Below, one piece after another: positions 3,535 to 10,076 of a stretch of DNA of 64,000 nt. Made by a program: the position numbers and the translations under genes. Source of the stretch: Chthonomonas sp. (GTDB taxonomy: Bacteria > Armatimonadota > Fimbriimonadia > Fimbriimonadales > Fimbriimonadaceae); the NCBI GenBank assembly GCA_016788115.1, contig JAEURR010000006.1, positions 62,001 to 126,000 on the forward strand, in the 5' to 3' direction. Every line of letters starts with the position of its first letter. Within the stretch, counting starts at the first letter, position 1. Under the pieces are notes generated by a model that was not told where the DNA came from, searched no databases, and saw only the letters and a program-made list of their open reading frames with translations.

Positions 3535-4386
3535 GTGCAGCAGCTACTTTTCGTTGTCGCCCTGATCGCGATCCTCGTCATCGGTATTCGTGCGATGCGC
3601 CATTCAGTTCGCGCCGGGATCCATCGTACGCAGATCCCCGCGCAGGTGGAGTATTGGATCTATTTGCCTACCGAGCGGGCACCGCTACAGGACGACTTGA
3701 TGAAGATCATGGTGGCGACCAACTCCGCCGACCCCAACAGACCCACCGCCATTACCGCGCGCGAGGGCATGATTTTCAGCGACATCCGTCTTCTCATCGA
3801 GCTAACTCTGCGTTCGCGCTCCCCGCATGTTTTTCGCCCAGACCTCCTGATGTCCCTCAGCGGCACCGATTCTGGCAACATCAATGGCCTGGCGGCGGCC
3901 CAATCGATGCTGAGGGTGCGATACGTCAGTCGCGAACAACTGGCCGACTATCGGCACCTCACCTTTATGCCGTATCTTGCGCACGCCAGCATGAAACTGG
4001 GCGATGGGATCGCCGTACTCGACGTCGGACGGCAGCGCCTCATGGATCCCGACCAGTTCACCCGCTGGCTCACAGCGACCACCAATCTCGAATCGTTCGA
4101 ATCGAATGTCACCATCCAGGTCGTCGAGGATGACGAGTACCGTCGCATCGTCACCACGGGCATGGTCACCATTGGGCTTCGAGAGCTTCGCACGTTGCCG
4201 CTTCAGGCCGATGCCGAGACCGTCGCGAAGCAGGTAGTCGAGGAGCTTGCGCGACGCTGCTGGGACCAGCGGACGGAGATCGAAGACATGATGGTCGACC
4301 TCGAATTTGATTCCTTCCGGGGCTACGTTCAAGGGCGCACCGCCGACACCTGCGAGTTGCGCATCCAGCGGATCACCAAGTCATGA
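3535..4386 (+). CDS. Membrane-anchored protein of unknown function
   Basis: A 283-residue protein with one N-terminal transmembrane helix (about residues 3-21, [15 protein letters not shown]) and a soluble remainder that shows no motif I recognise. It begins with GTG immediately after the preceding stop; GGAG lies about 11 bases upstream. Its TGA overlaps the hisF start in ATGA, so translation is probably coupled to hisF. A histidine-pathway role is not implied by the sequence; the coupling may only reflect a shared transcript. Confidence 0.6.
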
Positions 4387-5159
4387 GATCGATTCGGGTC
4401 ATTCCCTGTTTGGATATCAAGGACGGTCGCGTCGTGAAGGGCGTCAACTTCGTCGGACTCCGCGATGCAGGTGACCCTGTCGAACTTGCGCGACTCTACA
4501 ACGATCAGGGCGCAGACGAGCTTGTTTTCCTCGACATCAATGCCTCAAGCGATGCCCGAACCCCGGTCATCGACCTTGCGGAGAGGGTCGCCAATGAGAT
4601 CTTCATCCCGTTCACAGTCGGCGGGGGCATCCGATCGGTCGAGCAGATCAAAGAGGCCCTGCGGGCAGGTGCGGACAAGGTGAGTCTGAACACCGCCGCA
4701 GTAAACAACCCCGATTTGATTTCGGAAGCCGCGGAACGGTTCGGCACCCAGTGCGTCGTGCTAGCTCTCGATGCCCACGCGTGGGAGGGTGAGCCCGGAA
4801 AGTGGGAAGTCGTCATTCACGGTGGACGGACGCGCACGGGGCTTGACGTCGTCGAATGGGCCATGCACGCCGAACGCCTGGGAGCAGGTGAGATTCTTCT
4901 CACGAGCATGGACGGCGACGGGACCCTGGGTGGGTACGACCTCGCGGTGACCCGCGCGGTCTCCGATGCAGTACAGGTTCCGGTCATCGCGAGCGGTGGC
5001 GCAGGCATGCCAGAGCACCTGGTCGAGGCGGTCACCCAAGGGCACGCGGACGCGGTCCTGCTCGCAAGTATCGTCCACGACGGGACCTATCACCTGGCCG
5101 ACCTGAAGAAATTCATGCACGACGCCGGAATTCCTACGAGAATCGCGAACAAATTCTGA
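4383..5159 (+). CDS. hisF: Imidazole glycerol phosphate synthase cyclase subunit
   Basis: Cyclase half of the HisF-HisH enzyme of histidine biosynthesis. It uses ammonia from HisH to turn PRFAR into imidazole-glycerol phosphate and AICAR. The 258-residue (beta/alpha)8 barrel begins with [17 protein letters not shown], with the catalytic Asp in CLDIKDGR. Phosphate-binding loops follow (VGGGIRS, ASGGAG) and the second catalytic Asp is in [10 protein letters not shown]. Its ATG overlaps the upstream stop by four bases. No hisH or other his gene lies in the window, so the pathway genes are dispersed here. A strong terminator follows at 5244. Confidence 0.97.
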
Positions 5160-5238
5160 ATTGGCACGTCGAATGCTTTACTCCGAGAACGGAGGCTGAA
5201 CTTCAGCTTCCGAGATAGGAGAATCCGTTCATTCTAAT

Positions 5239-6054
5239 TTAGGCCGCTGGATTTCCAGCGGTCTTTTCTTTTGCCTTGACCAGCATCGTCAGCGCCCGGA
5301 CCACGTTGATCCGTTGCGGAGACAGCGGCAGGTAAGGAGACCGGCAGTCCCCCATCTCCAAGTCGAAGTTTGGATATGCGCACTTGAGCACGCGCAGCGG
5401 TCCGAAGTCGCGCATCGTCATGCTCCAAGTCTTCAGGAGTGCAAGATCAAGCTTTGGAGAAATCCGCCCAAAGATCCCGGCGAGCGGCGAGCAAAGGACG
5501 CCTCCCGTCACCCACTCGTAAGTCGTTACCGTGCTCGATGTCTGGGGTCCGTCGGGCCAAACGGTCGAGAGCGCATGCGCGATGGTCACCCGTGGAAACT
5601 GCTGAATTTCTAGTACGGCCTGCTTCGACAGGCGGCCCAACTGGTCGACCACGATGAGCGGCAATGCGGCGTAGCTCGCGATCGTCTTGAAGTGTCCGAC
5701 AAATTCGGCCTCAGTGAAATCGCCGTAGTAGGGCGGCATGATGAGCGCGGCCCGAGCACCGTGGCGTTGAGCGTGCTGCGCCAAGTCCAAGCTAGCACCG
5801 GAATTCAGCGTCGTACAGTTCGCCACCAGCGGAATCGCTCCCCGGGTCTCGCGGCAGACGATCTCCATCACCGCTTTGCGTTCGCTGAAGCTCGTCGAGG
5901 TGAACTCGCCCACGTCGGTATTCAGCACGAGCCCTTCGATGTGGCGCTCGGTCAACCATCGAACGATCCGCGCGATGCGCACCTCGCTCAGCGATTTCCC
6001 ATCATCGGTGAAGGGCGTGATCAAGGGCGCAAAAGATCCAGTTAGGTCAAGCAT
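5239..6054 (-). CDS. DapA/NanA-family aldolase homologue lacking the Schiff-base lysine
   Basis: A 271-residue (beta/alpha)8 protein of the dihydrodipicolinate synthase / N-acetylneuraminate lyase superfamily, recognisable by NTDVGE (for the usual GTTGE), the IMPPYYGDFTE loop and overall spacing. The lysine that forms the Schiff base in active members is replaced: the segment RVTIAHAL puts Ala159 where IK is expected. The tyrosine of the YN pair is Val136, and the two threonines of GTTGE are Asp and Val. Tyr110 of PYY remains. Classical aldolase chemistry is therefore unlikely; a ligand-binding or altered role is inferred. The start is ATG 6054, with GGTGGAG upstream. It is last in a run with the methyltransferase and guaA. 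Confidence 0.7.
   Translation of the reverse strand: MLDLTGSFAPLITPFTDDGKSLSEVRIARIVRWLTERHIEGLVLNTDVGEFTSTSFSERKAVMEIVCRETRGAIPLVANCTTLNSGASLDLAQHAQRHGARAALIMPPYYGDFTEAEFVGHFKTIASYAALPLIVVDQLGRLSKQAVLEIQQFPRVTIAHALSTVWPDGPQTSSTVTTYEWVTGGVLCSPLAGIFGRISPKLDLALLKTWSMTMRDFGPLRVLKCAYPNFDLEMGDCRSPYLPLSPQRINVVRALTMLVKAKEKTAGNPAA
5244..5272 (+). terminator. Rho-independent terminator of hisF, inside the convergent gene
   Basis: Perfect 7-bp stem CCGCTGG/CCAGCGG with an ATTT loop (5244-5261), followed by TCTTTTCTTTT on the plus strand. It sits inside the last codons of the convergent DapA-like gene (stop at 5239-5241). Between hisF and this hairpin (5160-5243) are two further small inverted repeats, CTCCG-AGAA-CGGAG at 5181-5194 and GCTGAA/TTCAGC at 5195-5207. 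Confidence 0.85.
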
Positions 6055-6096
6055 AGTTGCTCCACCGTTCATTCTCGGTAGATCCAAGCAACGTTG

Positions 6097-6852
6097 CTAG
6101 GGTCGGGCGGCAAGAAGGGCGATCTGGTGTAGCCGGAAGGTGAGCGTCTCGCCCTCACCGGTTGGCCTCAGATAGTCGCGGAGCCAGCCCTCGCTGTAGA
6201 TGATGCTGTGGAGCGTACGGGTCCGAACCGGCTCTTGCACGCTCATCCGATCGAGCCAATCGTAAGCGTTGTGGGGATTCGAATGGGTTTCCACGTGCAC
6301 GATCTTGTAACCCGCCTTCTCGGTCATCGCGCGCCACTCCGTCTCCGTGTAGTTCCGCACATGGCTCGGATCGCGCAGCGTTTCGACCAACTGCAACTCT
6401 TCGTTAGCAGCCGGATCCTCAATGCCGATTGTATCGACGATCAGGAGCCAGCCTCCCGATTCGGTCACTCGCCACGCCTCAGCTAGAAACTTGGGCACGC
6501 TCTGGAAGTGGTGGGCGGCGATGCGACTTGCCACCCCTTCAAACGCGCCGTCCTCGAAGTTCAGCTCCTCGGCAAAGCCGAGGAGCGTCTCGATCTGATC
6601 GAGCCCGCGCTCGGTTGCGGTCCGGGCAGTAACTTGCAACATTTCTGGGGTTGGATCAAGCGCGACCACCTTTCTTGCGTGAGGCGCGAACGCGTAGGCC
6701 AAGTGCCCAGCCCCCGTTCCGACATCCAATACTGCCCCGCCGCGAGGCTGAGCAAGCTCAACGCACCGAGCGAGCGCGGCCTCGTTCGCGTGGGCACCGC
6801 TGGTCAGATACCGCTCGGCCGCAGGTCCAAACTGGTCGCGCGGATCGGCCAT
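6097..6852 (-). CDS. Class I SAM-dependent methyltransferase (UbiE/Methyltransf_11-like)
   Basis: A 251-residue soluble methyltransferase with the SAM-binding motif I AVLDVGTGAGHLAYAF (about residues 40-55), motif II acidic ALDPTPEML, and the later FEGVASRIAAHHFQS segment typical of Methyltransf_11 proteins. The substrate cannot be deduced; UbiE-like C-methylation and small-molecule O- or N-methylation are both possible. Its ATG overlaps the stop of the upstream exported protein by one base (TAATG), so the two are probably translationally coupled. The DapA-like gene follows 42 bases later. Confidence 0.8.
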   Translation of the reverse strand: MADPRDQFGPAAERYLTSGAHANEAALARCVELAQPRGGAVLDVGTGAGHLAYAFAPHARKVVALDPTPEMLQVTARTATERGLDQIETLLGFAEELNFEDGAFEGVASRIAAHHFQSVPKFLAEAWRVTESGGWLLIVDTIGIEDPAANEELQLVETLRDPSHVRNYTETEWRAMTEKAGYKIVHVETHSNPHNAYDWLDRMSVQEPVRTRTLHSIIYSEGWLRDYLRPTGEGETLTFRLHQIALLAARP

Positions 6853-8129
6853 TACCGAATAACCAAGTACGTCGTGCTTGAAACTGTGCGGTCGCCGATC
6901 TGAGCCCGGAACGCAATCGGGATCACTCCGCGTGCATTCTGCGGCGCGATCAGGTCGATGGGGATCTTAGCGGTTCCGCGCGAATGGTAGATGATGAACT
7001 TCTTCTCGCGGTTCCGGGCGACGCTCCAGTCGTCGGGAACTCCGACCGTAAAGACCCCGTCCACCCGCCGAAGAGTATTCGACCGCAAGATCACGTTCCC
7101 CTTGAGGACTCGGCTATCCTTCTCGGTCACCAATCCGTTTGGCAGCGTCACCTCGAAATCGACGATATCGCTGATGCGGTAGCTGGTCTGCAGCACTGCA
7201 TCCTCCAGTCCGCTCGACTTCAAGGTCGTGCGCAAGATACGGAATCCCCGCGTCGCATCCGGGGCGACGCTGGTCTCGTAGTCGATGAACGACCGGCCCT
7301 TGCGATCGAACGCCGGGAACGGCAACTCGACTCGCTTGGTGAAAGCCGCAGCGAGCCCTTCGGTTCGCATCTCTGCGCGGTTAATCTCTGTCCCACCGGT
7401 GCGCCTCATGGTCATGCGGACCTTGATCGCTTCACCGGGAACCACGGTTCGCGCTTTGTACTCGCTTGCCCACTCGATCCCACCCGGAATATTACGCCCG
7501 CGCTCGTAACGCAAGAAGACAAGCGTGCACGAGCGCGGCATAAAAGCTTCGGGGCTCGGCTGATCTCGCGCGACGTCATCTGAGCGAATCCCTAACGTTC
7601 GACCGAGGACAAATGGTTGCTCGCTTACCGCCGGAACTGCCATCTCCAGGGTCCAGCGGTCCCCTTCTTGGATTCCAGCGCTTCGAATCATCCCTTCCAG
7701 GAAAGGCTGCTCGATCCAAAGCGGCATGCTCCGGTTCATGGCGTCCATTCGCCGGGCACGCACGATCGGGGCTCCATCGCCCCAGCTCACGCGCAATTCG
7801 ACGTTGTCGTCCCCGACCAACCAGCCGTCGCCATTGAGGTCCAGCGAGAAAATGATGTCTCGGCCCACCGGAACGACGGCACCCAGGAACAGCTTGTTCG
7901 GCTCCCATTGCATCGTCGTCGGGGCATTGACCGAGGTATTCAGGCCGTCCCACTCTTCCTGGTCGAACCGCCCGTCAATCTGCGGAGTCAACGCAAGTCG
8001 CTGAGTCGAGGCGACTTCGTACCGACTGAACATCGGCGATTCAGAAGGTTGAACATCGGTGGAAACGCTATTCGCGAACGCAAAAACGCCCCCCGCAAGG
8101 GTCCAAAAACTGGCCATAAGGCTAAGCAT
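6852..8129 (-). CDS. Exported protein with CBM9/DOMON-like beta-sandwich, function unknown
   Basis: A 425-residue protein with an N-terminal hydrophobic export signal (about 1-20). Residues about 45-190 look like the CBM9/DOMON type of sugar- or haem-binding sandwich: IDGRFDQEEWDG at its start and LDLNGDGWLVGDDNVELRV in the core. The remaining 230 residues look all-beta with no catalytic motif I recognise. It lies between guaA and the methyltransferase gene. Binding of a carbohydrate or wall polymer at the cell surface is the most conservative inference; no enzymatic role is supported. Confidence 0.6.
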   Translation of the reverse strand: MLSLMASFWTLAGGVFAFANSVSTDVQPSESPMFSRYEVASTQRLALTPQIDGRFDQEEWDGLNTSVNAPTTMQWEPNKLFLGAVVPVGRDIIFSLDLNGDGWLVGDDNVELRVSWGDGAPIVRARRMDAMNRSMPLWIEQPFLEGMIRSAGIQEGDRWTLEMAVPAVSEQPFVLGRTLGIRSDDVARDQPSPEAFMPRSCTLVFLRYERGRNIPGGIEWASEYKARTVVPGEAIKVRMTMRRTGGTEINRAEMRTEGLAAAFTKRVELPFPAFDRKGRSFIDYETSVAPDATRGFRILRTTLKSSGLEDAVLQTSYRISDIVDFEVTLPNGLVTEKDSRVLKGNVILRSNTLRRVDGVFTVGVPDDWSVARNREKKFIIYHSRGTAKIPIDLIAPQNARGVIPIAFRAQIGDRTVSSTTYLVIR

Positions 8130-8178
8130 GCTGTCTTTACAGACGTGCGAAACTCGGGAAGGGATGCGGTCGCCGACC

Positions 8179-9708
8179 CTATTCCCACTCGATCGTGGCC
8201 GGAGGTTTGCTGGTCAGATCGTACAGGACTCGGTTGACCCCTTCGACCTCGTTCACGATCCGATTCGCAACGTGTTCGAGCACATCAAACGGAATCGCAA
8301 CCGCCGTCGCGGTCATGGCATCTTCGCTCTGCACCGCGCGCAAAACGATCGGCTGCTGGTAGGTCCGTTCATCGCCCATGACTCCCACGCTGCGGACATC
8401 GAGCAGCGCGGCGTAGCTCTGCCAGATGAGCTTGTGGAGACCACGCGCACGCAGCTCGGCGCGGAAGATCGCGTCCGCCTCCTGCGTCATCTTCACGCGC
8501 TCTTCCGTGATTTCGCCAAGAATCCGTACCGCAAGTCCGGGACCCGGGAACGGTTCGCGATCCACCATGTGCTCCGGCAACCCCAGCGCACGTCCAACCT
8601 TGCGCACCTCGTCTTTGAAGAGCCACTTAACGGGCTCGATGACTTTGAGACTCATCCAATCAGGCAGCCCTCCCACGTTGTGGTGAGTCTTGATCTTGGA
8701 TGCGGTAGCCGATCCGGACTCGATGATGTCGGGATACAGCGTTCCCTGGGCCAAGAAGTCGCACCCCTGCAACTCCTCGGCATGCTCTTCGAAGCAGCGA
8801 ACGAATTCCGCCCCGATGATCTTTCGCTTCTGTTCCGGATCGGTTACTCCCTTGAGCGCGGTCAAGAATCGATCACGGGCATTGATCGCGATCAGCTTGG
8901 GGTGGAAGTGCTCTGTGAACTCGCGAATCACATCCTCGGCTTCGTTCTTGCGGAGAAGACCATGATCGATAAATACGCACGTAAGCTGATCTCCGATCGC
9001 TTGAGCCATCAGGGCGGCGACAACGCTGCTATCGACACCACCGCTCACCGCACAGAGAACTCTGCGGTCTCCAACCTCCTGGCGGATCGCCTCGATTGCT
9101 TCGTCGATGAAACTCTCGCTATTCCAATCGCCGCGGAGCTTAGCCTTGTCGAAGAGGAAACGACGCAGGATTTCCTGACCGCTCAGGGTGTGGGAGACTT
9201 CCGGGTGGAACTGCACACCGAACATCGGTCGATCGGTCCCTTCGAATGCAGCGACGGGGCACGACTCGGTCGAACCGGTCACTTGGAATCCTTTCGGCAA
9301 GTGCACCACCTGGTCGCCGTGGCTCATCCACACCTGCTTAGACTCGAGCCCACCGACCAACGAGTGCGGCGTCGCCTCGCTCAGGTTCCGGCGTCCGTAC
9401 TCTCGATCGGTCGCGCGGCGCACTTCCCCGCCCAGCGCATTCGCCAGATACTGCAAGCCGTAGCAGATTCCCAGGACGGGTGTCTCAGTTGGCAATGATG
9501 CCAGCGGGATATCGGGGGCACCCTCTTCGAGCACGCTGCGCGGACCACCGCTAAGGATGATCGCGCTCGGTCGCTTCTCCGCTATCGCGGCGGTGGCCGT
9601 CATCCACGGGACGAGTTCAGAAAAGACGCCTAGCTCCCGGACTCGGCGCACGATGAGCTGCGAGTACTGCCCGCCGAAGTCGATGACCAAGACGCTCTGG
9701 TGATCCAT
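8179..9708 (-). CDS. guaA: GMP synthase (glutamine-hydrolysing)
   Basis: Converts XMP to GMP with ATP and glutamine, the last step of guanine nucleotide synthesis. The 509-residue protein has a class I glutamine amidotransferase domain (about 1-190; nucleophile Cys82 in GICYGLQ, His in FHPEVSHT). Next comes the ATP-pyrophosphatase domain with the P-loop SGGVDSSV (about 220-240). The C-terminal dimerisation domain ends in DLTSKPPATIEWE, the hallmark family terminus. It follows glnB by 26 bases on the same strand and precedes the exported CBM9-like gene by 49 bases. Confidence 0.98.
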   Translation of the reverse strand: MDHQSVLVIDFGGQYSQLIVRRVRELGVFSELVPWMTATAAIAEKRPSAIILSGGPRSVLEEGAPDIPLASLPTETPVLGICYGLQYLANALGGEVRRATDREYGRRNLSEATPHSLVGGLESKQVWMSHGDQVVHLPKGFQVTGSTESCPVAAFEGTDRPMFGVQFHPEVSHTLSGQEILRRFLFDKAKLRGDWNSESFIDEAIEAIRQEVGDRRVLCAVSGGVDSSVVAALMAQAIGDQLTCVFIDHGLLRKNEAEDVIREFTEHFHPKLIAINARDRFLTALKGVTDPEQKRKIIGAEFVRCFEEHAEELQGCDFLAQGTLYPDIIESGSATASKIKTHHNVGGLPDWMSLKVIEPVKWLFKDEVRKVGRALGLPEHMVDREPFPGPGLAVRILGEITEERVKMTQEADAIFRAELRARGLHKLIWQSYAALLDVRSVGVMGDERTYQQPIVLRAVQSEDAMTATAVAIPFDVLEHVANRIVNEVEGVNRVLYDLTSKPPATIEWE

Positions 9709-9734
9709 GGAAGGTCAGAGTTTAGCACTCTCGG

Positions 9735-10076
9735 TCACTGGATCGCGGCCTCGCCGCGCTCTCCGGTGCGTACCCGAACCGCATCCAAAACCTCGCTGAC
9801 GAAGATCTTGCCATCCCCGATGTCGCCGGTGTGCGCCGCCTCCTGAATTGCTTCAATGGCCGTCTCCAGATCACCTTCGGCAACTACCAGCTCCACCTTG
9901 ATCTTGGGAACGAGGTTGAGCGCGTAGGTCGATCCGCGGTACTTATCCGTTTGGCCCTGCTGGCGACCGTATCCGCGCACCTGTTCCACGCTTAGGCCAT
10001 GGATTCCCGCGTCTTCGAGCGCATTCATGACTTCCTCAAGCTTGTTCAGCCGCACAAATGCCTCAATCCGTTTCAT
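9735..10076 (-). CDS. glnB: Nitrogen regulatory protein P-II
   Basis: Trimeric signal protein that senses ATP/ADP and 2-oxoglutarate and controls nitrogen metabolism by binding partners. From ATG 10076 it is 113 residues, the usual length; upstream in-frame sequence to 10220 is not PII-like. The T-loop GYGRQQGQTDKYRGSTY keeps the tyrosine that is uridylylated in enteric GlnB. The B-loop GDIGDGKIFV and C-loop VRVRTGERGEAAI are intact. It lies upstream of guaA rather than beside amtB or glnA, which may tie it to glutamine-using nucleotide synthesis here (inference). It diverges from the histidine kinase across about 48 bases. Confidence 0.96.
   Translation of the reverse strand: MKRIEAFVRLNKLEEVMNALEDAGIHGLSVEQVRGYGRQQGQTDKYRGSTYALNLVPKIKVELVVAEGDLETAIEAIQEAAHTGDIGDGKIFVSEVLDAVRVRTGERGEAAIQ

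Follow-up and report, generated by a model that had tools for sequence, protein, structure and literature searches.

A DapA-superfamily protein clade without the Schiff-base lysine, a probable pseudo-aldolase encoded with a putatively exported CBM9-like protein

The window, that is, the whole stretch of 64,000 nucleotides analysed here, carries on its minus strand (5239..6054) a gene encoding a DapA-like protein without the Schiff-base lysine, which is labelled K0 in the following. The gene begins with an ATG at 6054 and encodes 271 amino acids plus the stop codon, and a Shine-Dalgarno-like GGTGGAG (6060..6066, minus strand) can be read from the sequence 5 nt upstream of the ATG. K0 is the third gene of a tight co-directional set. 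The first one (6852..8129, minus strand) encodes a probably exported protein of 425 amino acids, named EXP here, with a signal-like N-terminus as judged by eye, a predicted CBM9-like fold at about residues 41-227, and Ig-like domains after it. The second one (6097..6852, minus strand) encodes a SAM-dependent methyltransferase of 251 amino acids (PF08241) and is an optional middle gene of the set; the EXP stop codon and the methyltransferase ATG overlap by one base (TAATG). The guaA gene (8179-9708, minus strand) is located 49 bases upstream of the set. These neighbours are the ones given in the initial annotation, which placed K0 behind guaA and in the same direction as a methyltransferase and an exported sandwich protein.

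On the other side, hisF (4383-5159, plus strand) is convergent with K0. The junction between both genes carries a terminator-like hairpin of 10 pairs with a T-rich tail (5241..5264, plus strand), which touches the K0 stop codon. This hairpin is weak on its own, with four terminator-like sites observed in 5100-9800 and 3.6 expected in shuffles. No promoter-like site was found in the same interval.

Regarding family membership, K0 matches PF00701 (E 1.7e-26; 93.1 bits against a gathering cut-off of 22.1) over residues 4-137 only, and the family is also recognised at E <= 0.01 in 20 of the 20 K0 members of the alignment A3. The second half of the protein is much diverged, but its C-terminal stretch is still recognisable (second stretch of the match between the A3 profile and 3hij, E 1.4e-4). 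E. coli DapA (b2478) shares with K0 the PF00701 domain over the first half, the predicted fold, the GE of the GTTGE loop, and a C-terminal K...G..R.P motif, and E. coli NanA (b3225), which presents the same fold, is among the best sequence matches. Nevertheless, K0 stays far below the cut-offs of the models built for these enzymes, with 67.1 bits for the dapA equivalog TIGR00674 (cut-off 206) and 65.3 and 76 bits for the NCBIfam nanA models (cut-offs 382, TIGR00683, and 281, respectively).

The AlphaFold2 model of K0, built with 20 sequences (pLDDT 94.5, pTM 0.92), shows a DapA-type (beta/alpha)8 barrel with C-terminal helices, a predicted fold that may be pulled towards the well-known family. 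The highest Z in VIA-align corresponds to 3na8, a putative dihydrodipicolinate synthetase from Pseudomonas aeruginosa (Z 28.8, 2.1 A over 243 residues, 18% identity with K0), and rows within 1 of this value are tied; 2rfg reaches a Z of 28.6 (2.3 A over 250 residues) and the DapA structures about 27-28. Where the relatives have beta7, alpha7 and beta8, the DSSP line of the K0 model has a single interrupted strand at 181-188 (181-183 and 185-188). Moreover, the alignment gaps show that roughly 30 residues are gone from the second half, and the K0 proteins are 233-273 amino acids long (24 proteins), whereas most canonical rows have about 290-310. Read together with the alignment, the DSSP line suggests that a strand was lost in the beta7-beta8 region, a segment that is shortened in comparison with DapA.

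The class I aldolase mechanism of DapA and NanA requires the lysine. The catalytic positions were checked in an alignment of 24 K0 proteins, 65 canonical relatives, and E. coli DapA and NanA. In the column of the Schiff-base lysine (K161 in DapA, K165 in NanA) the window K0 presents His160, or Ala159 if the register shifts one residue; with beta6 predicted at 156-158, Ala159 is equally plausible at this position, and neither candidate is a lysine. The lysine is present in all 65 canonical relatives and in 0 of 24 K0 proteins. The same distribution was found for the relay tyrosine (Y133 in DapA, Tyr137 in NanA), which is Val136 in the window (tyrosine in 0/24 K0 proteins versus 65/65 canonical ones). 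The threonines T44 and T45 of the GTTGE loop are replaced by Asp47 and Val48, and the first of them is Asp or Glu in 17 of the 24 K0 proteins, whereas G46-E47 is retained as Gly49-Glu50. These data agree with the initial annotation, which had proposed that the lysine was lost, that the tyrosine had changed to Val136, and that the threonines had changed to Asp and Val. A conserved lysine at strand 6, named beforehand as the observation that would speak against this proposal, was sought by alignment and not found. Hence, K0 belongs to PF00701 and to the DapA/NanA superfamily by sequence and fold, but it is not a class I aldolase by its catalytic features. The same losses recur across the K0 members, so they are not the product of sequencing error or chance.

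A second alignment with 42 distinct K0 rows places a lysine in the column in three of them, in a gappy and badly aligned stretch, and two of these rows (L061 and L039) share one genome, G009. None of the 42 rows has the tyrosine; 30 of them carry an acidic residue in place of T44, and the position of Glu50 is E or D in 42/42. A lysine relocated nearby is not conserved either, since it appears within 4 columns in only 6 of 23 rows. Lysine is found in at least 8 of the 24 K0 rows only at K60, in alpha2, and at K224, which is the ordinary C-terminal lysine of the canonical rows. Furthermore, the lysine is kept in 20 of 20 additional PF00701 paralogues taken from this family of organisms, which indicates that its loss is specific to K0.

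The distribution of K0 was analyzed with a profile of the 24 K0 members (A1), taking E <= 1e-30 as the match threshold. K0 is present in 47 of the 85 genomes of the window's family, with one copy per genome; in G088 the gene appears in two pieces at contig ends. Outside this family, no K0 was found with this profile among the 113 genomes of the order and the 291 of the phylum searched, where the best nine candidates were scored per genome. The K0 profile matched nothing at 1e-4 in the 19 EXP stretches from K0-less genomes, and the idea that a diverged relative replaces K0 there was rejected. Among public records, 20 K0 members were found, 11 of them labelled Fimbriimonas, Fimbriimonadaceae or Fimbriimonadales, five Armatimonadetes or Armatimonadota, three Chthonomonas or Chthonomonadaceae, and one as an archaeon, probably by mislabelling. 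The last one (L095, JADZEW010000023.1, labelled Methanoregulaceae archaeon) carries a K0 protein 96% identical to that of the Fimbriimonadaceae locus L094, and its assembly probably carries a wrong label or mixes sequences of different organisms.

In a tree of the first half of the protein (60 rows, 24 of them K0), K0 is monophyletic, being set off from the remaining rows by a branch with support 100/99, and this clade is separate from the three other PF00701 clades of the family. The dN/dS values are 0.02-0.13 for whole K0 genes and 0.01-0.14 for the C-terminal half; these come from 15 rows that correspond to 7 distinct gene pairs, some genomes being counted twice. Such low values indicate that K0 is under purifying selection. 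This bears on whether K0 could be a decaying or mis-called pseudogene, given that its catalytic residues are missing and its second half is shorter by roughly 30 residues. A gene kept once per genome in 47 genomes, without internal stops in the listed matches, with dN/dS <= 0.13 in the 7 pairs and with a conserved gene order, makes this explanation hardly credible, and a pseudogene or frameshift origin for the clade was rejected on the basis of the selection test and the open frames across it.

The regions where conservation lies were compared at matched divergence, using 23 K0 proteins (mean pairwise identity 0.33) and 22 canonical ones (0.34) and structural classes drawn from the DSSP line of the K0 model. 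The catalytic face scores 0.552 for conservation in K0 versus 0.695 in the canonical set. On the contrary, alpha1-alpha3 reach 0.684 in K0 versus 0.471 in the canonical set (p 2.9e-8 for the column differences). Relative to its own mean, alpha1-alpha3 conservation is 1.32 in K0 versus 0.90-1.05 in three lysine-bearing paralogue clades (7-8 sequences each), and that of the catalytic face is 1.07 in K0 and 1.13-1.16 in the paralogue clades. The residues specific to K0, present in 19 to 24 of 24 rows, are E24, R26 and R32 in alpha1, K60, E64 and R68 in alpha2, D90, Q93, H94 and R97 in alpha3, and E117 at the start of alpha4. In the folded protein, the conserved helix residues may make up a single exposed patch, a network of internal salt bridges or an interface between subunits. 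Regarding the former catalytic positions, the columns of K161, Y133, R138, Y107 and T45 are at the 11th-49th percentile of K0 conservation, below the median, that of T44 is at the 60th, and G49 and E50 are at the 92nd. This relative shift of conservation off the catalytic face favours a pseudoenzyme.

Nevertheless, the E or D at position 50 in every row of the larger alignment and the frequent acidic residue at the T44 position argue against a pseudoenzyme, as they could belong to a reshaped working pocket. K0 could then be an enzyme with a changed chemistry, acting by acid-base catalysis with Asp47, Glu50 and Asp17/Asp18 on some compound that is not a 2-keto acid. In line with this, D17 and D18 are present in 24/24 K0 rows, the half that bears the pocket is also under purifying selection between near relatives, and the catalytic face still exceeds the K0 mean. 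However, D17, D18 and E50 are common in the canonical rows too (the frequency of D17 and D18 there is inflated, as the set was partly fetched by the TPFTDD pattern), and the percentiles of K161, Y133, R138, Y107, T45 and T44 given above would be unusual for a family of enzymes that carry out one reaction. Such a changed chemistry seems fairly unlikely. The initial annotation had left the choice between a pseudoenzyme and a changed chemistry; the loss of the Schiff-base residues holds across the clade and the conservation shift favours the former as the more probable of the two.

The EXP protein, folded whole (425 residues), gave a model with a pLDDT of 84.5. The predicted structure of residues 41-227 has the CBM9 beta-sandwich fold, its best match being the CBM9 module 7nwn from Caldicellulosiruptor kristjanssonii (Z 14.6, 3.2 A over 149 residues), which differs from EXP in that the latter has additional Ig-like domains beyond this fold. 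The next structure match (Z 12.2) falls on a different part of the model. Foldseek matches to complement and macroglobulin chains were set aside because they reflect a shared Ig-like arrangement. No Pfam family matches the EXP of the window at 0.5, and among 14 members there are 5 that match NEW3 only, and weakly (best E 0.021). Four tryptophans (W60, W75, W103 and W138) do not vary across 14 sequences, and glycan binding is only a candidate role for this protein.

EXP was found in 75 of the 85 genomes of the family, 74 of which give a single match, and, outside the family, in one more genome of the order. It is present in 47/47 genomes with K0 versus 28/38 without it (Fisher p 1.5e-4, or 1.1e-3 with the 70 better genomes only, in statistics that ignore shared ancestry). 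The 28 genomes that have EXP without K0 indicate that EXP does not require K0. K0 is downstream of EXP and co-directional with it in 41 of 47 genomes, and in the other 6 it is not beside EXP. In 22 genomes it comes directly after EXP, with 2-101 bases between the matched segments, and in 19 the spacing is 749-956 bases, a gap of the size of the methyltransferase. In fact, the methyltransferase profile matched in 18 of the 18 gapped loci scanned versus none of the 14 directly adjacent loci scanned. The methyltransferase is also beside EXP in 3 of 19 EXP loci from K0-less genomes (L170, L172 and L182), so it is not tied to K0. In two loci, L182 (genome G032, 3576-4282, profile positions 1-150 and 159-251) and L077 (G102), two frames share the match to the methyltransferase profile, owing to frameshifts or assembly errors.

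The genes upstream of the pair vary: the window has guaA, 4 loci have an ftsZ-like gene, and 5 have genes resembling those of bL9 and MlaD (named by eye), which indicates that the EXP-K0 pair has been kept while its surroundings changed. The guaA gene is not among the ORF families common to at least 3 of the 24 loci compared. Other fixed partners were consequently rejected: the methyltransferase is optional, hisF is convergent in some loci only, and guaA is not recurrent. Of the co-directional set described in the initial annotation, the link with the exported protein is therefore the part that is conserved.

This neighbourhood also bears on another possible role, in which the barrel would bind a small sugar acid or a related molecule without turnover and would signal through its helices to a partner controlling the exported glycan-binding system. 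The NanA/DapA-type ancestry, the CBM9-type partner, the acidic replacement in the pocket, and the conserved outer helices are consistent with such a ligand sensor. However, the window K0 carries no DNA-binding or signalling domain in Pfam, none of the recurring neighbours examined was recognised as a regulator, and the conservation of the pocket is too low to suggest one ligand, which makes this role quite unlikely.

Considering all these data, K0 is probably a lineage-specific pseudo-aldolase, retained for a binding or scaffolding role that would be exerted through alpha1-alpha3 and would serve the envelope system of EXP. We infer the absence of catalysis, the binding by the helical surface, the cytosolic location, and the functional link with EXP. 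K0 would descend from one ancestral full-length member of the DapA/NanA superfamily, whose Schiff-base lysine and relay tyrosine, as well as the Thr-Thr site for pyruvate, would have disappeared along with part of beta7-beta8. With the lysine, the tyrosine and the threonine pair lost, and an acidic residue at the site of the pyruvate carboxylate, the usual Schiff-base chemistry with a 2-keto acid is impossible. The protein would instead work by binding through the charged K0-specific residues of alpha1-alpha3 listed above, plus E117. It would probably be produced together with the cell-envelope system around the exported CBM9-like protein and would serve it; the presence of a CBM9-type protein next to K0 is a hint of an envelope or glycan context. 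No signal sequence was recognised in K0 by eye and the protein is presumably cytosolic, so any link with EXP would occur via regulation or from the cytosolic side.

As a wider and more tentative proposal, a class I aldolase barrel could have become, in one bacterial lineage, a non-catalytic protein-binding module. The catalytic site would have been given up and a portion of the barrel removed, and a conserved charged surface that arose anew on alpha1-alpha3 would dock a partner and serve a secreted CBM9/Ig envelope system. If this is true, the DapA/NanA superfamily would include a pseudoenzyme clade with an evolved second function. No description of a lysine-less DapA clade was found in full-text literature searches, judged by titles and the openings of abstracts and with thin coverage of subscription papers, and the passages available from PMC4207490 are not about such a clade; it is possible that it has been described elsewhere. 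The K0 clade can be seen as a natural experiment on what a barrel does once catalysis is gone. Moreover, the EXP-K0 pair offers a way to approach EXP, a probably exported CBM9-like protein that belongs to no Pfam family and is itself a good target.

Finally, the lysine pathway gives these proteins a practical side. Neither dapB (TIGR00036) nor a DapA above the TIGR00674 cut-off was found in the genome of the window, whereas lysA is present (C6:240256-241482). In the family, 14 of the 85 genomes have no dapB match and 68 exceed the cut-off; the genomes without dapB include G002, from the genus of the window, and all five of genus g22. A DapA over the TIGR00674 cut-off is present in 36 of the 47 K0 genomes and absent from 11, the window's genome included. 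K0 was rejected as the lysine-biosynthesis DapA of this genome, given that the catalytic residues are gone. Automatic annotation likely labels K0 proteins as DapA family enzymes because of their PF00701 score over the cut-off, and such labels would mislead pathway reconstruction, above all in the genome of the window, with neither dapB nor dapA found. The sole other PF00701 protein found in this genome (C6:224228-225037) keeps the lysine and the tyrosine, has GTNGE for GTTGE, and sits in a clade of the family apart from the DapA clade in the tree.
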